Assembly (NCBI GenBank): GCA_902727985.1
Contig: CACVAY010000038.1
Coordinates: 1 to 38,978, forward strand
Direction: 5' to 3'
Source: an uncultured Thiotrichaceae bacterium
GTDB lineage: Bacteria > Pseudomonadota > Gammaproteobacteria > Thiotrichales > Thiotrichaceae
Length of the DNA stretch: 38,978 nucleotides
Shown here one piece after another: positions 5,783 through 22,449 of the stretch (its first letter is position 1; each line of letters starts with the position of its first letter). The notes under the pieces are model-generated. The model saw only the letters and a list, made by a program, of their open reading frames with translations, did no database searches and was not told the origin of the DNA. The position numbers and the translations under genes are program-made.

Positions 5783-6192
5783 ATTATTTTTCCTTCCTGT
5801 TCTTCTACACCACCCTTTCACTATTATCTTTTCTTTAAGGAGCCGTAGATTAAATTCATTCGTCGGATAAATTGTGAATCCCATGCTGGATCTGTTGCAA
5901 TGGCACCACGTCCAGCTTTGCTCGTGTGTCGAATATGAGATATGATTTGATTGAAACTTGTGCTAGTGAACGCACTTTACTTATAACCTAGATGTTTTTT
6001 GAGTCCTGACTAGCGTTATCAGTAGTCCATTCGAGTGTTTAAACGCATAAGTTAATCATGTATATGTCATAGGGGCATGCACAAATTTGTTTTTATCAGC
6101 ACTGCAATAGTCTGGTGAATTCGCTTAGCTACTGGATAATATGGATAGCCTGCGATAATGGTTTTCATACTAAGCGATATGAGGAAGTATTC
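5783..6192. other. Intergenic gap of 410 bp
   Basis: Besides the gene remnant at 5824-5976, no convincing ORF, tRNA or terminator was seen. The right half (about 5990-6190) must contain the promoter of the GTPase cluster, but no clear -35/-10 pair could be picked by eye. Confidence 0.5.
5824..5976 (-). pseudogene. Decayed 3' end of an unidentified gene
   Basis: The minus strand reads open for 50 codons to a TAA at 5824-5826, bounded upstream by an in-frame TAA at 5977-5979. It has no start codon near its beginning. The translation looks like real protein: it contains NQIISHIRHTSKAGRGAI, then ATDPAWDSQFIRRMNLIYGS. The amino-acid usage is non-random for an otherwise geneless 410-bp gap. The ATDP-W segment faintly recalls C-termini of peptidoglycan glucosaminidases, but that is too weak to name it. 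It is most likely the remnant of a deleted gene. Confidence 0.4.
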
Positions 6193-7167
6193 TTGAGATA
6201 TAAAATAATCATTAGTGGACCTGTGGGAGCGGGAAAAACCTCAGCGATCAATGCCTTGACTGATGATAAAGCGTTGAAGACCGATGTTGCTGTTTCTGAT
6301 GTTGTTACCAGTCAAAGAAAGGATACGACAACAGTCGCATTGGATTATGGTGTTATCAAGTATGCGAACGAAGATGTGGTGCATATTTACGGGACGCCTG
6401 GTCAGGAACGCTTTGACTTTATGTGGGATATTCTTTCTGAAGGTGCCCATGGTCTAATCCTGCTATTCGATAACTGCCGTAATTATCCGTTTCGGGATCT
6501 CAAATACTATACTGAACAATTTTCTGACCTCATCGCCAAAACAGGCTTGATCGTTGGTGTGACACGCTATGATGTAACCCAAGACCCAGATGTTGAAGAA
6601 TATAAAGACTGGCTGAGAGAGTTAGAAATTAAGGCCGACGTATTTGTTGTTGATGCCAGGGTCAAAGAAGATATACATACTTTGGTTCGTCACTATTTGG
6701 ATCAAAATGCTGACATCTCAAGCTTAGGAAAACAACAGCGTGACGAGAAAAAAACTGTTGAAGCCGCTGAGGTAACAACGGTTGTTCCTCCTCTTCCTAA
6801 GACTATATTAAATGAAGAAACAGCTGCTCTCACTAAAATGCGGCTCACTGAAAAATCCATGCGCTCTGTGATGAAAATACAGGGGGTGACTGGTGCGAGT
6901 TTGGCGAATGATGTCGGGGAGTTGATTGATTCAACGATTCAGGATGATGATATTAATGAGTTTATCGCATTTATTTCTGGACTAACTCCCGCTGTCCAAG
7001 CGATTGCTGATATGGGGGAGATTCATAGAATTATGTTGCGTGGATCTAAGGATGAGAACTTAACTGTTTTTGTTGAGGCTGAGCATAGTTTGGGTGTTAC
7101 ATCTGAGCGCAAAGCTTCTGTTCCAGCAATTAGTCAGCAAATTGAAGATACATTGCAATGGATGTAA
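6193..7167 (+). CDS. MglA/Ras-like small GTPase fused to a C-terminal roadblock-like domain
   Basis: A 324-aa cytoplasmic protein. The N-terminal half is a small GTPase of the bacterial MglA-like/COG2229 group: P-loop GPVGAGKTS at residues 9-17, conserved Thr in the RKDTTT switch region near 42-47, and IYGTPGQERFDFMW at 66-78 as the G3/switch II segment. The usual NKxD is replaced by TRYD at 124-127, as tolerated in this group. After a charged linker (about 175-215), residues 216-324 look like a roadblock/LC7 domain (ANDVGELIDS, then VFVEAEHSLGV). Roadblock proteins such as MglB regulate MglA-type GTPases, so the fusion suggests built-in regulation. The start is set at TTG 6193 because GAGGAAG precedes it and the P-loop follows directly; an upstream GTG at 6115 has no ribosome site. 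Confidence 0.75.
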   Translation: MRYKIIISGPVGAGKTSAINALTDDKALKTDVAVSDVVTSQRKDTTTVALDYGVIKYANEDVVHIYGTPGQERFDFMWDILSEGAHGLILLFDNCRNYPFRDLKYYTEQFSDLIAKTGLIVGVTRYDVTQDPDVEEYKDWLRELEIKADVFVVDARVKEDIHTLVRHYLDQNADISSLGKQQRDEKKTVEAAEVTTVVPPLPKTILNEETAALTKMRLTEKSMRSVMKIQGVTGASLANDVGELIDSTIQDDDINEFIAFISGLTPAVQAIADMGEIHRIMLRGSKDENLTVFVEAEHSLGVTSERKASVPAISQQIEDTLQWM

Positions 7168-7191
7168 TTAAAAAAGGGTTACTGAAATAGT

Positions 7192-7830
7192 ATGGAACAG
7201 ATAGTACAGAATTTAAGTTCTCTTAAAGGCGTATTAGATGCCTGTTTATATAAAGATACTGAGATTGTTGCGAGTACTTTTTCAGAAGAACAAAATGTAA
7301 AAATGTCTGACTTGGGAGAGATGGTTGACCAAGTCTTTGGTGCACTCAGAGCTATCGAAAAAAGCCATGATGAAATCTATTTTTCTCTCAATGATAAATA
7401 TATTGCAGTTTATTTCTTAAATGATTCTCATTTGGCTATTCTCCTCACCGAAAAGAAAATTAACTTTCCACTGGTGCATATGGGAGTGAAGTCTGCAGCA
7501 GGCAAGTTAAAACGGATACAGGAGAAAGCAGAAAAAGAACAACAGCAGCTGTCTCAATCGGTTAATGGTCATGTTGCCAGTACGCCTGCTCATATTCCAA
7601 CGGAAGAATCCATTAAAACCCAGCTTATTCGTATCTCAACCGTTCTGATGGGGTATTTAGGCCCTGCCGCAATGCTGATTGTGGATGACCATGTTGAAGT
7701 TTGGAAACAGAAGTATGTACAAACTCCTGAAAATCTGGAATATCTTGTCATCATGCTTGAGAGTGAAATTACTTCAGATACGGATAAGGTTCAATTTAGA
7801 GACAAAGTTAGTAGCGTTATCGCAGAATAA
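7192..7830 (+). CDS. Roadblock/LC7-like protein with extra C-terminal domain
   Basis: A 212-aa soluble protein, 24 bases after the GTPase gene. Residues 1-105 resemble a roadblock/LC7 (MglB-like) fold: GVLDACLYKDTEIVASTF, DKYIAVYFLNDSHLAILLTEK, then a final helix with LVHMGVKSAAGKLKR. A Gln/Glu-rich linker leads to a second small domain (about 140-212) containing LMGYLGPAAMLIVDDHVEVW, which resembles the small GPxA domain found at the ends of some bacterial signalling proteins. The likely partner is the upstream GTPase, as a regulator or scaffold. That is inferred from the family role of MglB and from co-location. Confidence 0.65.
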   Translation: MEQIVQNLSSLKGVLDACLYKDTEIVASTFSEEQNVKMSDLGEMVDQVFGALRAIEKSHDEIYFSLNDKYIAVYFLNDSHLAILLTEKKINFPLVHMGVKSAAGKLKRIQEKAEKEQQQLSQSVNGHVASTPAHIPTEESIKTQLIRISTVLMGYLGPAAMLIVDDHVEVWKQKYVQTPENLEYLVIMLESEITSDTDKVQFRDKVSSVIAE

Positions 7831-7847
7831 AGAGACAATACGTTCGT

Positions 7848-9029
7848 ATGAATAAAATAAGAAATAAATTATTACTGGCATTAATTTTAGTGACCTTACT
7901 ACCTGCTATTCTGATTAGTGCCTACAGTTTATTCTCTACCTCCAAAGCGCTGCGTTCCAATGTGTTAGGTGATCAGCAAAACAAGGTGAGTTTGCTTCGT
8001 GAACGTATTAATAATCATGTGTCGAGTGTGCCCAGTGATCTGTTTTTCTTGAAAAACTCAAATGCTTTGGATTTGTATACGACTTCTCAGGCAGAAAGTG
8101 GAAACCATTCACAACGTTTATTGCTCACTAATTTGCGCTCAGCTTTTCGTAAATTCTCGGAACAGAAAAAAATCTACAGTCAGGTTCGTTATCTTGATAT
8201 AGAGGGTAAGGAAATTGTCCGTGTAGATCGAGCCGAGGGGAAATCAACTGTTATTTCGGACACTAAATTACAAGATAAGTCAGATCGATATTACTTTAAG
8301 GATGCGATAGCACTTGAAGAGGGTAAATTATTTATCTCTAATTTTGATCTTAATAAAGAATCTGGCGAGGTTCAAAAGCCAGTATCTCCAACTTTACGTT
8401 ATGCGACTCCTGTTTTCGATAAGGAAGGTGAGCTAAAAGGTGTCGTTGTTTTAAATGTAGATGGTAATGTGCTTCTGGGTTTGGTAGCGAAAGAGGCTAC
8501 GGGTGGACAACAGATTTTATTCACAAATACAGAAGGTTATTACTATTTTCATAATGATCCGAGTAAAGCATGGGGAGGTGCTGAGGATTTGGCGAGTGGT
8601 ATCAATATCTATAAGGATCGCCCTGATGTCGTGAATCAGCTAAAGGAGGTAAAAGCGTTGGACTATGTCGAGTCTGATCAGGAAATTCTTATTTATAACC
8701 CGATTACCATTAACAATGGGAAGAAGGTGTTGGGAAGAATGTTCAGCGTAGTTCCTAAAGATGTGCTTTTTAAACCTTTACAAAGCTATTTCTGGGTCTT
8801 CTTTGGCATTGCTTTGGTTTCATTGTTGTCTGCTTTCTTACTAGCTTCTGTGTTATCGAACTCGATTACCAAGCCATTGGTGGATTTGAAGGATAAAGTT
8901 GGCAAGCTTAGTCAGGGAGATATGGAGACTCCGATTGAAATTAAATCGAAGGATGAGGTGGGTGAGTTGGCGCATGCTGTTGAATTATTACGTAAATCAA
9001 TGAGTATTTTAATGACTCGCTCCCGATAA
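7848..9029 (+). CDS. Cache-HAMP membrane sensor lacking an output domain
   Basis: A 393-aa inner-membrane protein built like the sensory half of a chemoreceptor or histidine kinase. A first membrane helix lies at about residues 8-30. A periplasmic double-Cache-like region covers about 35-305, with YLDIEGKEIVRVDR, DRYYFKDAI and VVVLNVDGNVLLGLV. A second helix lies at about 312-336, and a HAMP domain at about 337-390 (SITKPLVDLKDKVGKL, then KSKDEVGELAHAV). The protein stops four residues or so beyond HAMP; no methyl-accepting, kinase or cyclase domain follows. The stop is followed after nine bases by a well-placed lipoprotein gene, so this is not an obvious frameshift. It presumably signals through a separate partner, perhaps the upstream GTPase/roadblock pair. 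Confidence 0.8.
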   Translation: MNKIRNKLLLALILVTLLPAILISAYSLFSTSKALRSNVLGDQQNKVSLLRERINNHVSSVPSDLFFLKNSNALDLYTTSQAESGNHSQRLLLTNLRSAFRKFSEQKKIYSQVRYLDIEGKEIVRVDRAEGKSTVISDTKLQDKSDRYYFKDAIALEEGKLFISNFDLNKESGEVQKPVSPTLRYATPVFDKEGELKGVVVLNVDGNVLLGLVAKEATGGQQILFTNTEGYYYFHNDPSKAWGGAEDLASGINIYKDRPDVVNQLKEVKALDYVESDQEILIYNPITINNGKKVLGRMFSVVPKDVLFKPLQSYFWVFFGIALVSLLSAFLLASVLSNSITKPLVDLKDKVGKLSQGDMETPIEIKSKDEVGELAHAVELLRKSMSILMTRSR

Positions 9030-9038
9030 GGAATAAGG

Positions 9039-9305
9039 ATGAAACTACCCATTCATAAGCTATTTGTTGCTATAACCATGAGCCTTGTTGTCGCTGGTTG
9101 TGGGGAAGAAGCTGAGGTGAAAAAAGAAGCACCTGTAGCCGCAGAGAACCCCATTCAAGCTGAGGAACAGGCAGTAGAGACCGAGGCGATGAATGAAGGT
9201 CTTTACGACTTAAAAAGTTCGATTAACAGTGCGATTGGAGCTTCTATTGAAGAGGATATCCGGGATGCGGTGGAAAATCAGATAGAAAAAAATAATAAGC
9301 AATAG
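9039..9305 (+). CDS. Small acidic lipoprotein of unknown function
   Basis: An 88-aa protein with a classical lipoprotein signal: positively charged start MKLPIHK, hydrophobic stretch, and lipobox VVAGC with the acylated cysteine at residue 21. The mature part is short and acidic (many Glu) and ends in a predicted helix (LYDLKSSINSAIGASIEEDI). A good ribosome site, AAGGA, precedes the ATG. It follows the Cache-HAMP gene by nine bases and probably acts in the periplasm next to that sensor. No family was recognised. Confidence 0.72.
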   Translation: MKLPIHKLFVAITMSLVVAGCGEEAEVKKEAPVAAENPIQAEEQAVETEAMNEGLYDLKSSINSAIGASIEEDIRDAVENQIEKNNKQ

Positions 9306-9419
9306 AGTGGGGGGAGGGGTCTGTCTAAGGTGACGGGTCGGGAAAAATAAGTAACGAGGCCGGTGCTAGGAGCTGTGGTTTCGTCGGAACATTGTCATAG
9401 GGATATCCAGGAGATGAAA
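9306..9419. other. G-rich spacer between lipoprotein and rhodanese genes
   Basis: A 114-bp spacer whose left part has four G-runs within about 40 bases (six G, four G, three G, three G, around 9309-9350). This could fold as a G-quadruplex in RNA or in the plus DNA strand. No clear promoter or terminator was seen. Confidence 0.3.
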
Positions 9420-10064
9420 ATGAAACAACACGCAATAGTCATGAAAGGTTTACTGCTTGCCACCTTTCTATTCGTACCATTTATTAGTAGTGCTGAAAAC
9501 AAAGTAAAAATTACCCCAGATATCCCATATGTAGATGTTCAGCACAATGGTAAAACGGTCAGGGTCGAACGTATTCAAGATACCAAGAACCGTTTAAACA
9601 ATGGTTTCTCAAAAACATCACGTGTGTGTCCTCCATTCTGTGTGAATCCCATTGAGCTTTCCCCAGGCGTTAAAACCGTTGCCGAATTAGAGGTACTGAA
9701 CTTCCTTGAGGGAGCTGTTAAGGAAAACAAAGGATTGCTCATTGACGCACGAATGCCAGAATGGTTCGAAAAGGGAACAATTCCAGGTTCAGTCAATATT
9801 CCATTCACCGTCTTGAGTAAAGGTTTTGAGAGCAAACATACGCAGAAGATTATTACCTTATTGGGGGCAAGAAAAAACGGTGAAGAGTGGGATTATGAGA
9901 ACGCCCGTGAATTGCTTATGTATTGTAATGGCATGTGGTGTGGGCAATCAGGTAAAGCAATCAAGAATTTATTGGAACTCGGTTATCCAGCAGAAAAATT
10001 AATGTGGTATCGAGGCGGTATGCAGGCATGGCAGTCACTTGGTCTAACAATAATTACACCGTAG
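9420..10064 (+). CDS. Exported rhodanese-like protein with extra cysteine pair
   Basis: A 214-aa periplasmic protein. The signal peptide is MKQHAIVMKGLLLATFLF with a likely cut after residue 25 (SSA). A single rhodanese domain spans about residues 85-212: LLIDARMPEWFEKGTIPGSVNIPF is the typical substrate-entry region. The active-site loop is YCNGMWCGQS with Cys169 as the expected persulfide cysteine and a second cysteine at 174. A further CPPFC motif (70-74) lies before the domain. Such proteins transfer sulfane sulfur or act on small thiols. ATG 9420 is chosen because GGAG lies six bases before it; ATG 9414 would sit too close to that site, and an upstream in-frame TTG/GTG region has no signal peptide. 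It is followed after 10 bases by the LysM protein gene. Confidence 0.82.
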   Translation: MKQHAIVMKGLLLATFLFVPFISSAENKVKITPDIPYVDVQHNGKTVRVERIQDTKNRLNNGFSKTSRVCPPFCVNPIELSPGVKTVAELEVLNFLEGAVKENKGLLIDARMPEWFEKGTIPGSVNIPFTVLSKGFESKHTQKIITLLGARKNGEEWDYENARELLMYCNGMWCGQSGKAIKNLLELGYPAEKLMWYRGGMQAWQSLGLTIITP

Positions 10065-10074
10065 GGGAATGATG

Positions 10075-10944
10075 ATGAATAAAAGAATACTCTCTACTGC
10101 TTTAGCTAGTCTGTTTGTTATGCAAACAGGTTTTGCAGAAAAAACGGCTCAGTCGGAACTAGATATTTTGAGTGCGGAGGCTGATGAGGCGATTGCTGAA
10201 AATACGCAAAGTAGTACCCCAATTGTAGCTGAACCCAGTATGGAAGCTATTTCTGATGCTGAAACCGATAAGTTATCGGATGCGGTGGCCAGCCAACTGT
10301 CTAAGATTTTAGGTGAGTCTAGCAGTGATGTAATTGATGCAGAAACGGAAGATAAAATCGAAAAAGTTATTTCTTCATCACTCTTAAGTGGTGCTGAAAT
10401 GAATGATATCAAGAATGCTGTGAGTTCTGCGATGACGGAGCTGAAGTCTGAAGATGGCTCAGCAATTTCAGAGGAAAAAATTGAAAACGCTACCCAGTCT
10501 ATTGATAAGTTAGTGGGATCTGAGACGAAAACGGATGCGGCGGAAGATAGCTATTTATCTTCTCTGCGCGCTGAAGCGGATGCAGTAAATGAGCCTGCAT
10601 TTAAAGAAACCTCAGCATCAGTTTCGGAAGAAGCTAAACCCGCTAAGTCTCTAGCTAAAGAAGTTCAAGCAGCAGCTGAACCAGAAAAAGCATTGACTGA
10701 AGAAAAACCTACAAAAGTATTGGTAGATGCTGTAGCAGAGCAGTCATCAACTGATGATGATACCAAAGAGTCTTTCTTGAATGCTGAATCAGTAACTGTT
10801 CTCAAAGGTGAGTCCTTGTATAAAATAGCGCTACGTGTTTATGGTAATGGTGGAATGTACGCGAGACTTTACGATGCAAATAAGGACGCTATCATTGATC
10901 CAAACTTGATTCGTGTTGGACAAACTTTAAAAGTCCCCCGTTAA
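10075..10944 (+). CDS. Exported acidic protein with C-terminal LysM domain
   Basis: A 289-aa protein with signal peptide MNKRILSTALASLFVMQTGFA. The central region (about 25-235) is strongly acidic, Ala/Ser/Glu-rich, probably helical or disordered, with no recognised domain. The C-terminal 45-50 residues form a LysM domain: VLKGESLYKIALRVYGNGG, then YDANKDAIIDPNLIRVGQ and TLKVP. LysM binds N-acetylglucosamine in peptidoglycan, so the protein is probably anchored to the cell wall with a flexible acidic arm. Three ATG codons stand in a row; the third (10075) has AGGGGA at the best distance. It shares the transcript with the rhodanese gene. Confidence 0.78.
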   Translation: MNKRILSTALASLFVMQTGFAEKTAQSELDILSAEADEAIAENTQSSTPIVAEPSMEAISDAETDKLSDAVASQLSKILGESSSDVIDAETEDKIEKVISSSLLSGAEMNDIKNAVSSAMTELKSEDGSAISEEKIENATQSIDKLVGSETKTDAAEDSYLSSLRAEADAVNEPAFKETSASVSEEAKPAKSLAKEVQAAAEPEKALTEEKPTKVLVDAVAEQSSTDDDTKESFLNAESVTVLKGESLYKIALRVYGNGGMYARLYDANKDAIIDPNLIRVGQTLKVPR

Positions 10945-20631: not shown

Positions 20632-21438
20632 TTATTGGAGTCTTAATTGCTGTCCAGGGTTAATTTGATAGCTTGGCGCTTGTAGGTTATTCAGACGAAT
20701 AATTTCCTTCCAGTTGACTCCAGTATTACGCATAACCTGGAAAACGGTATCGCCGCGTTGAACAGTGTATGTATTTCCATTATTGCTTGATGTATTAGAA
20801 CTACTGCCACCGCCATAGGTATTGGTAAAACTCGTGCTACCTTGATTGTGCGTATGGCTTAAACCAGATGCAGGTAATACATGTGAATGAACTTTGCCGT
20901 TATGGTCATGGTTTACAGCACCTTTTTGAGTAGGGGCCGGATTGTAGTAGGTCGTATTCGTGTTTGCCGTGTTGTCGTAGTAACTACCCGTGTTTGCGGT
21001 TGTATTTGTAGTCGTCGTTGTTGTCGTTGCTGCTGTTGTTGTTTGAGTTCCCTGGTTGTGTGTGTGGTTGGTACCAGTAGCAGGGAGAGGGTGGCAATGT
21101 CGTCTACCATTGTGCATATGGCAGTTTCCACCAGTATTGGCAGTATTTTGCGGAGGTCTGACAACATTAGTTGTTGTATTCGTGTTGCTACCACAAGGTA
21201 CACAAGTATTCGTGTTCGTATTAGAAGTGCCTGTGCCAGCATTAAAGTTATGAGAATGGCTTAGACCACCTGCAGGTAATGGATGGGTATGGGCAACACC
21301 ATTATGGGTATGAGTCGTACCTTTTGCGTCGTCAGCGCTTGCATTCTGAGCACTGGGATTCGAATTTGTGTTAGAGCAACCTGTTGCAATCAATACCGAT
21401 GCAGCCAAAGTTAGAATAATTTTTGTTTGTTTATCCAT
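20632..21438 (-). CDS. Histidine-rich LysM lipoprotein with three metal-binding-like blocks
   Basis: A 268-aa lipoprotein (lipobox IATGC, Cys21). It carries three near-identical 22-residue blocks at residues 43-64, 107-128 and 177-198, each of the form HxHNGxxHxHxLP then AxGxxHxHN, giving six histidines per block and eighteen in all. Cysteines at 79, 82, 106 and 115 lie in and near the middle block. The linkers are low-complexity Thr/Asn/Gly. A LysM domain ends the protein (about 222-268: YTVQRGDTVFQVMRNTGVNW, then QINPGQQLRLQ). The histidine pattern points to binding of Zn, Ni, Cu or Co ions at the cell surface, while LysM would hold it on peptidoglycan. Metal binding is inferred. A plausible promoter with a palindrome lies upstream. 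Confidence 0.78.
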   Translation of the reverse strand: MDKQTKIILTLAASVLIATGCSNTNSNPSAQNASADDAKGTTHTHNGVAHTHPLPAGGLSHSHNFNAGTGTSNTNTNTCVPCGSNTNTTTNVVRPPQNTANTGGNCHMHNGRRHCHPLPATGTNHTHNQGTQTTTAATTTTTTTNTTANTGSYYDNTANTNTTYYNPAPTQKGAVNHDHNGKVHSHVLPASGLSHTHNQGSTSFTNTYGGGSSSNTSSNNGNTYTVQRGDTVFQVMRNTGVNWKEIIRLNNLQAPSYQINPGQQLRLQ

Positions 21439-21471
21439 GGGGTTACGCCTGAAAGTTAGTTAGTTGGTCTA

Positions 21472-21507
21472 AGTATAGCTTTCAGAGTGTTTATTTTCCA
21501 TATGGAA
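21472..21507 (-). promoter_or_regulatory. Promoter of the His-rich lipoprotein with overlapping palindrome
   Basis: On the minus strand, TGGAAA (21495-21500) and TATACT (21472-21477) are separated by 17 bp, a good sigma-70 arrangement. The perfect 12-bp palindrome TTCCATATGGAA (21496-21507) covers the -35 element, where a repressor or activator could bind. Confidence 0.45.
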
Positions 21508-21534
21508 TATAAAAAAAAATAAACCATTGATATA

Positions 21535-22449
21535 TTAGGTGTTTAAATTATTAAGCCTTCGACGGCGCTCATCAAAATCCCAGAGAAAGGTTTGAATATT
21601 CCGGTATCGATCGTCGGGATGCTTTGCCAGCATGCACTCCAGAGAGTCTTGAAGAGGTTCGAAAGCGGTAGGCAAAAGAGGTACTTTTGCTAAGGCATGT
21701 TGTTTGATGAGGTCGAGGCTTGTACCTGCCTCAAAAGGCTTATAGAAGGTTATTAATTCATAGAGAATAATGCCAAGACTGTAGATATCTGATTGCACGG
21801 TACACACCTCACCAGCAGCATGTTCAGGACTGACATAGGAAGGCGTACAGTGTACTTCCCCCTCAGAAATATAGCCTGCATTAATTAGCCACTGATTTTC
21901 TATACCGCAATCAACAAGAATAAGCTCCTCATCACGAAACATGATGTTAGATGGCTTCAAGTCACGATGAAGCAGGCCAGCGTCGTGGAGTGATTGTAGA
22001 CAAAGCGTAATATCGCGAAACCAGTCAAGCCGTTGTTTAATACTTAGGGTGGGGTTGTGAAGCAGGGTTTCAGCAAGATTTGGACTGGGTAGATACTCCA
22101 TCAATAAATAGAAGGTACCTTTATAAAGGCCTGCATTGTCAATGCGGATAAACTTGGGGTTTTTTATTGCTCGGATTCTATCAACGGCTTCGATAAAGTC
22201 CTGTATTTGTGAGTCAGACAACAAATTTACGTCATAATGGAACTGCTTTATAACAGCAAGTTGGTAGTTTTTATTTTGTACAAGTGTAATCGTCGAATGA
22301 GAATTCGAATGGATAAGTCGTTTGAATCTCCAGCCGGGTAATGAGATCGGAGTATCCTCATAACAAGGCTGTGACGTATTTAGCCAATCGGAGGTTGAGG
22401 ACTGCATCATGTCTGTAGGATATGCCTGTAATGAGTTAATTATAGACAA
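21535..22449 (-). CDS. Divergent Hanks-type Ser/Thr protein kinase
   Basis: A 304-aa cytoplasmic protein with one eukaryotic-type kinase domain and no transmembrane segment. VIK (Lys68) supplies the ATP-anchoring lysine, HRDLKPSN (161-168) the catalytic loop, YVSPEHA the APE-like motif and DIYSLGIILYELIT the F-helix. Two departures are clear: the glycine-rich loop is replaced by IHSNSHSTITLV with no glycine, and the DFG motif reads DCG (180-182). It may still be active, since Lys, HRD, Asn and the DxG aspartate remain. The start is uncertain: TTG 22449 has no ribosome site; an ATG pair near 22410 is the alternative. It follows gspC by 37 bases. Confidence 0.8.
   Translation of the reverse strand: MSIINSLQAYPTDMMQSSTSDWLNTSQPCYEDTPISLPGWRFKRLIHSNSHSTITLVQNKNYQLAVIKQFHYDVNLLSDSQIQDFIEAVDRIRAIKNPKFIRIDNAGLYKGTFYLLMEYLPSPNLAETLLHNPTLSIKQRLDWFRDITLCLQSLHDAGLLHRDLKPSNIMFRDEELILVDCGIENQWLINAGYISEGEVHCTPSYVSPEHAAGEVCTVQSDIYSLGIILYELITFYKPFEAGTSLDLIKQHALAKVPLLPTAFEPLQDSLECMLAKHPDDRYRNIQTFLWDFDERRRRLNNLNT

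Follow-up and report, generated by a model that had tools for sequence, protein, structure and literature searches.

A recurring gene module that pairs a fused GTPase-roadblock protein with a HAMP sensor lacking an output domain in filamentous sulfur bacteria

Actinobacterial conservons (CvnA-CvnB-CvnC-CvnD) join a membrane HAMP sensor, a roadblock protein and an MglA-family GTPase in one operon, and the GTPase has been proposed to be the output of the system (PMC4316618, PMC13343842). In Myxococcus xanthus, MglA, which belongs to MglA Group 1, is a Ras-like GTPase under the control of the roadblock protein MglB. In the Rag/Gtr GTPases, which work with Ragulator and of which the Rag proteins serve nutrient sensing in eukaryotes, the GTPase domain is followed by a C-terminal roadblock domain and a separate roadblock protein serves as partner. 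In Asgard archaea and eukaryotes, fusions of a GTPase to a roadblock domain have been described (PMC10933270), and we found no description of such a fusion in bacteria in the literature searched. Here, we analyzed six genes at positions 6193 to 10944 of a stretch of 38,978 nucleotides (contig CACVAY010000038.1, referred to here as the window) that is part of the 3.5-Mb genome of an uncultured Thiotrichaceae bacterium (GCA_902727985.1). A previous reading of the window without database searches (the sequence-only reading) had proposed these genes as a candidate signalling module.

All six plus-strand open reading frames (ORFs) were confirmed, with the order and the gaps of 24, 17, 9, 114 and 10 bases given in the sequence-only reading (starts TTG 6193, ATG 9420 and ATG 10075). 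We refer to the genes as G1 to G6 and list them below with their domains, in amino acids (aa) where applicable; G2 to G5 also name GTPase motifs and are then called motifs.

6193 to 7167, plus strand: G1, Ras-like/MglA-family GTPase with a C-terminal roadblock domain; 324 aa (Pfam, AlphaFold2 (AF2), Foldseek, alignment of 18 homologues)
6193 to 6720, plus strand: G1 GTPase domain, aa 1-176 (P-loop GPVGAGKT, Thr at motif G2, GTPGQ at motif G3, TRxD at motif G4, DAR at motif G5)
6721 to 6849, plus strand: G1 linker, aa 177-219 (variable in the alignment, predicted to be disordered)
6850 to 7161, plus strand: G1 predicted roadblock domain, aa 220-323 (secondary structure of the model H-EE-H-EEE-H; Robl_LC7)
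7192 to 7830, plus strand: G2, second predicted roadblock protein, with a C-terminal helical domain; 212 aa (AF2 mean predicted local distance difference test (pLDDT) 79.5)
7192 to 7536, plus strand: G2 predicted roadblock domain, aa 1-115 (VIA-align to structures in the PDB)
7603 to 7821, plus strand: G2 C-terminal GPIA-like helical domain, aa 138-210 (hhalign; proposed to dock output-less HAMP sensors)
7848 to 9029, plus strand: G3, membrane sensor of the order transmembrane (TM)-dCache-TM-HAMP, no output domain; 393 aa (Pfam, alignment of 12 homologues)
8853 to 8996, plus strand: G3 HAMP domain, aa 336-383 (PF00672, 40.5 bits)
9039 to 9305, plus strand: G4, small exported protein with a conserved C-terminal helix (alignment of 12 relatives; conserved position)
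9420 to 10064, plus strand (start 9414 or 9420): G5, periplasmic rhodanese-like protein (PF00581, 52 bits; co-location)
10075 to 10944, plus strand: G6, acidic exported protein with a conserved helical region and a C-terminal LysM domain (PF01476, 32.4 bits; alignment of relatives)

The module works like a conservon but is not one. CvnA is histidine-kinase-like with a HATPase domain, whereas G3 has no kinase module; a CvnC-like Pfam match (DUF742) was found in none of the six proteins; and the GTPase architecture is different, in that G1 is fused to a roadblock domain. The module further differs in the GPIA-like domain of the partner protein, in its exported accessory genes and in its occurrence in Pseudomonadota. 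The sequence-only reading had described the GTPase family as not usually joined to a Cache sensor or a rhodanese, which stands only in part since conservons already join GTPase and roadblock proteins to HAMP sensors (PMC13343842, PMC4316618).

Recurrence and variants of the module

To compare the loci of related genomes, we used tblastn, ORF calling and profiles, counting near-identical copies once and including partial genes at contig ends in the counts of sensor, rhodanese and LysM genes. The fused GTPase was found in 28 loci, and G2 lies directly downstream in 26 of them. An output-less sensor comes next in 18 of these 26 G1-G2 loci, a rhodanese is present in 18 and a LysM protein in 19. 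The flanks vary from hslU-hisI in the genus of the window to a methionyl-tRNA-synthetase-like gene in the g8 genomes and others in Leucothrix. Since the order recurs with different flanks, the gene set travels as a unit. Our data confirm that the six genes are a real recurring signalling module, conserved in filamentous sulfur bacteria, and the co-occurrence across related genomes for which the sequence-only reading had called was thus found. G2 is present in 25 of 63 genomes of the family, and a few other metagenome-assembled genomes of gamma- and beta-proteobacteria have a single fused locus (L014, L017, L018, L020, L197).

The exported proteins are borne out to different degrees. Rhodanese and LysM domains were confirmed in G5 and G6, and G5 contains the Cys motifs CPPFC and CNGMWC. 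G4, previously read as a lipoprotein, has a lipobox (VVAGC) in the window, most relatives carry a plain TM anchor instead, and no Pfam family was found for it. The last two genes had been judged to be more weakly linked on account of the 114-bp spacer between G4 and G5, yet their frequencies among the 26 loci tie them to the module more strongly than claimed. The spacer matched nothing in Rfam and shows no terminator-like site, and promoter-like sites were not commoner there than in shuffled sequences. Among relatives, the distance from G4 to G5 ranges from an overlap or a few bp up to 528 bp.

Beside the full module (variant A), three other arrangements were found. Variant B consists of G1, G2, rhodanese and LysM genes without a sensor (L121, L131, L186, L187; L130 is cut by a contig end). 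Variant C has no GTPase: it has a stand-alone roadblock gene, G2 and a dCache-HAMP sensor, and after these often another HAMP protein, which carries a Tll0287 domain with CxxCH (Pfam; L136, L137, L138, L188, L189), and the sensor lies directly after G2 in 8 of 11 GTPase-less loci. Variant D comprises roadblock-G2 pairs without a sensor, which the window's genome has on C11 and C76. A Thiothrix locus (L015/L194) contains the GTPase together with both kinds of sensor. Given as they are with or without a GTPase, and with or without an added heme-Cache-HAMP protein, the related loci make the inputs and outputs of the roadblock-sensor core appear swappable.

Some further loci of the window's genome touch on these variants. 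The two pairs on C76 and C11 (L115 and L116) are each a roadblock gene with a G2-like gene whose product has no GPIA-like domain. Another contig, C32 (L235), has a second sensor pair at 261-2328, made up of an output-less dCache-HAMP protein that shares 35% identity with G3 and, after it, a Tll0287-HAMP protein with CNICH. This sensor pair stands at the contig start, and roadblock partners are not adjacent to it in the assembly. A continuation of the C76 roadblock pair into the C32 sensor pair was considered and is not supported, as C76 closes with the apparent end of a 5S rRNA and with a gene in convergent orientation.

The fused GTPase and its roadblock partner

The TTG start of G1 at 6193 has a ribosome-binding site, GAGGAAG, in front of it and coincides in the alignment with the residue at which homologues start; an in-frame GTG upstream at 6115 is a less likely start. 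G1 matched PF03029 in Pfam (45.6 bits, cut-off 27), with Roc and Ras also above cut-off. The P-loop, T46/T47, G67, P69, G70, Q71, T124, D127, D154 and R156 are invariant across 18-19 homologues, and taken whole the GTPGQ, T..D and DAR motifs vary little or not at all. The match to Robl_LC7 falls below cut-off in G1 (E 0.0014, residues 224-290) and reaches a best E value of 3.2e-6 among G1 homologues. Stand-alone roadblock proteins of 104-124 aa that are homologous to this domain adjoin G2 homologues in some loci. The AF2 model of G1 comprises a GTPase domain, a disordered linker (pLDDT <50, aa 175-215) and a roadblock domain. Its top Foldseek matches are Gtr/Rag chains (9h4q_a, E 1.1e-12; 8yl2_B; 6jwp_B), among them yeast Gtr in EGOC and a RagA-like GTPase from Lokiarchaea. 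Both domains were aligned, at a root-mean-square deviation (rmsd) of ~19 Å that leaves the relative placement of the domains uncertain. The VIA-align list for G1 (Z ~18 to Rab proteins) is filled by Rab GTPases and does not cover the roadblock half. Overall, the model and the profile matches confirm the predicted roadblock domain of G1, as the sequence-only reading had it, and the Rag/Gtr-like order of GTPase and roadblock, which that reading had missed.

Despite sharing this order and a separate roadblock partner with Rag/Gtr proteins, G1 does not carry their Gtr1_RagA signature, which was absent from its Pfam matches with E up to 1. G1 is closest to bacterial MglA relatives, and its partner G2 carries the proposed sensor-docking domain. 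Because the signature is absent, the domain order of G1 is most likely convergent with that of Rag/Gtr. In a locus of a Leucothrix-group genome (L129 9143-10294, minus strand), the G1 linker is a long run of 'VDA' repeats, which suggests that linker length is freely variable.

We next place G1 among the MglA proteins. GTPGQ, a TRxD-type motif and DAR make up the motif set of MglA Groups 2/3 (PMC4316618), and this pattern is also seen in G1. G1 further shows the Group 3 features of a Thr in place of the Arg finger and a motif G4 without Lys, whereas M. xanthus MglA has an arginine finger and TVPGQ and is unfused. In a tree of 80 GTPases, all fused ones form one clade (support 99/98), which joins stand-alone GTPases of Thiotrichales and others (support 97/88). 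In this tree, which held no references from MglA Groups 1, 2, 4 and 5, the fused clade appears nested in Group-3-like stand-alone GTPases. The fused GTPase, MglA-like in the sequence-only reading, probably has its nearest relatives among the Group 3 proteins of beta/gamma-Proteobacteria and not in the polarity MglA of M. xanthus.

Group 3 proteins nevertheless differ from G1. They are single-domain proteins of up to 240 aa, while G1 has 324 aa and a roadblock domain, and they neighbor a protein with receiver-like and winged helix-turn-helix (wHTH) parts, while no such protein lies beside G1, which has a dedicated sensor instead. The published survey of MglA proteins left out those >240 aa (PMC4316618), and a fusion of the G1 type would for that reason have escaped it. 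The window's genome also encodes a stand-alone GTPase (contig C39) beside a roadblock protein and a protein with a receiver-like N-terminus and a wHTH-like C-terminus, which matches the published Group 3 layout. This locus (L114, 6883-12963) contains a bactofilin gene on the opposite strand, the receiver-like/wHTH gene, the GTPase, a conserved protein of 213 aa, the roadblock protein and a LysM/FimV-like membrane protein. Elsewhere, ORFs of ~500-576 aa with a long N-terminal region and the GTPase at the C-terminal end (L214, L224, L227, L054) are perhaps fusions of the receiver-like protein to a Group-3-like GTPase.

G2 yielded only noise against Pfam, and its profile returned only irrelevant matches from the PDB sequences. 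Its roadblock fold was found by structure alone, through an AF2 model and comparison with the PDB. By VIA-align, aa 1-115 of the model match 3kye_B (Z 16.3, rmsd 1.7, 112 residues aligned) and MglB 6h5b_B (Z 14.4, rmsd 2.4, 115 aligned). This comparison of a predicted structure confirms G2 as a roadblock protein, in agreement with what had been read from its sequence.

A GPIA-like domain beside sensors without output domains

The C-terminal helical domain of G2, which had gone unnoticed in the sequence-only reading, is likely the element that couples the roadblock proteins to the sensor. It has no Pfam match; a match to DUF8082, the family expected here, was not obtained, and the literature searched on this family yielded nothing about the domain itself. 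A profile of the domain (A8) weakly matched a TIR protein and a Ser/Thr kinase with a GPIA motif. Profile comparison by hhalign gave 96.6% probability (E 5e-10) against GPIA domains and 97.5% (E 7.5e-12) against nine GPIA domains of kinases, TIR protein and cyclase, and a GPIA profile without G2 rows still matched the G2 of one genome (G373, 9.1e-5). At the level of sequence profiles, these data confirm the domain as a homolog of the GPIA domain of Ser/Thr kinases, cyclases and a TIR protein. The GPIA-type domain itself is ~60 aa long, C-terminal and without a Pfam match (L294-L321, L249, L250, L260, L261, L262).

G3 matched PF21623 (92.8 bits) and HAMP, with dCache_1 below cut-off, and it stops 10 residues past HAMP. 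All 12 aligned G3 homologues stop shortly past HAMP with a conserved E-x-LR-x-S end, and an output domain is absent from every full-length relative aligned, in line with the earlier description of G3 as a sensor without output. Tll0287-HAMP proteins are likewise output-less membrane HAMP sensors. Tll0287 is a c-heme Cache domain (sCache_heme), and a HAMP-only member from P. azotoformans was tested as a nitric oxide (NO)-binding protein, according to passages of PMC12889525 that name no cytoplasmic partner for Tll0287-HAMP proteins. They differ from G3, whose dCache domain has no heme motif, and variants of the module hold both kinds of sensor in one operon.

We asked what lies beside GPIA domains in proteins other than G2. 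Within the family, five of six non-roadblock GPIA proteins (a TIR protein, three kinases and a cyclase) have an output-less Tll0287-HAMP protein encoded one or two genes away; the exception is a protein of 179 aa. For an out-of-sample test, the class was searched with a GPIA profile free of G2 sequences and 28 loci were taken. A same-strand Tll0287-HAMP protein lies beside the GPIA protein in 26 of these 28 loci, and in whole ORFs its HAMP domain ends 2-13 residues before the C-terminus. The two exceptions are a locus with no Tll0287-HAMP protein (L306) and a 3-kb contig (L319). Most of the GPIA proteins here are kinases; three are cyclases and one is ACT-like. As background, none of 992 ORFs (877 kb around stand-alone GTPases) was a Tll0287-HAMP protein. 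Among G2 homologues, an adjacent sensor was found for 26 of 32 with the GPIA-like domain and for neither of two without it (Fisher p ~0.05; three edge loci excluded).

These data raise a general scheme, to which we give about an even chance, in which sensors ending in HAMP signal in trans to cytoplasmic proteins through one docking domain of the GPIA type. This domain would be joined to Ser/Thr kinases, cyclases, TIR and ACT-like proteins, and to roadblock proteins that control a Rag-like GTPase. We found no description of such trans-HAMP/GPIA signalling in the literature searched. The GPIA-HAMP pairing is possibly a new general principle, and the module itself is a variant of known GTPase-roadblock signalling.

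A proposed signalling route and competing explanations

The reading we favor, though by a little over even odds, is that the locus encodes a G-protein signalling module acting across the membrane. The dCache domain of G3 would bind a ligand in the periplasm, and the signal would cross the membrane to HAMP, the sole cytoplasmic part of G3 by its sequence. Rather than driving an attached enzyme, HAMP would contact the GPIA-like domain of G2, as the recurrent pairing with output-less HAMP sensors suggests, and this contact might change a heteromeric assembly of the G2 and G1 roadblock domains. By comparison with MglB, Ragulator and conservons, the assembly could act as a GTPase-activating protein, a guanine nucleotide exchange factor or a scaffold for G1, whose GTP-bound form would be the output. 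G4 to G6 may be periplasmic accessories that tune or localize the sensor, or may belong to an envelope process that is being watched; their link to G1-G3 is genetic only.

Several observations weigh against this route. The hhalign comparison of the G1 and G2 roadblock domains is weak (probability 65%), two fused GTPases have no G2 (L016, L019), and six loci with a GPIA-bearing G2 have no adjacent sensor (L017, L018 and the four of variant B). Most GPIA/Tll0287 pairs involve kinases and possibly go back to one ancestor, which makes the loci not fully independent, and the background was drawn from one locus type. The phylogenetic breadth is narrow: by sequence, G2 is present in 2 of 369 genomes of the class, the window's own included, and by profile in the window's own only among 398 genomes of the phylum.

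Could G1 and G2 instead be an MglA/MglB-type switch for polarity or envelope positioning, with cytoplasmic inputs of its own, and the sensor and exported genes be co-regulated neighbors? The six sensor-less loci and the sensor-less roadblock-G2 pairs in the window's genome fit such a switch, as does the related stand-alone GTPase near bactofilin and a LysM/FimV-like protein. However, 18 of 26 fused loci have the sensor directly after G2, as do 8 of 11 loci without a GTPase, GPIA domains pair with HAMP proteins, and in four g8 genomes whose fused locus is sensor-less, a second locus elsewhere (variant C) supplies roadblock, G2 and sensors, so we regard the polarity switch as unlikely. Chance neighbors in a conserved genomic region are far less probable still: hslU and hisI are conserved too in the window's genus, but the same gene set recurs in the same order among unrelated flanks in other genera, and chance clustering was rejected on this ground.

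The exported genes raise questions of their own. That G4-G6 are a separate envelope or redox unit merely carried on the G1-G3 transcript is the strongest of the competing explanations, although we hold it to be somewhat improbable. A G5-G6 pair lies apart from G2 in one genome (G078), the rhodanese family has many paralogues without the module, and several modules are without G4 or G5. Against this, the module-type rhodanese (at least 57% identity) nearly always adjoins G1/G2 and G6 across genera with different flanks, and even in variants without a GTPase a LysM protein comes next (L135, L195). A redox model, in which sulfane sulfur is sensed or handled by the rhodanese, whose state sets the GTPase through G3, draws on the rhodanese in 18 of 26 modules, on the many hosts labelled as sulfur-bacterium taxa and on the added c-heme Cache domain, Tll0287 (PMC12889525). 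We consider it quite doubtful, since a sensor occurs without a rhodanese in L123, L126, L129 and L194, a rhodanese without a sensor in the four variant B loci, and rhodanese paralogues abound outside the module.

If the proposed G-protein route and the docking scheme are true, receptors that end in HAMP, heme-Cache NO-binding proteins included, would gain their missing cytoplasmic partner, and trans-HAMP signalling would become directly testable. The Rag/Gtr order of GTPase and roadblock would then exist in bacteria, and Proteobacteria would have their own counterpart to the conservon, a module able to link a signal from outside the cell to a small GTPase.

Two minor observations concern neighboring genes. 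A trypsin-like/PDZ protease family (L013 11469, L012 6756, L193 11021, L235 6450) adjoins the module in Leucothrix genomes and occurs near the G078 G5-G6 pair and on contig C32 of the window's genome. At 20632-22449 of the window itself, a His/Asn/Thr-rich LysM lipoprotein is encoded next to a Ser/Thr-kinase-like gene on the minus strand.

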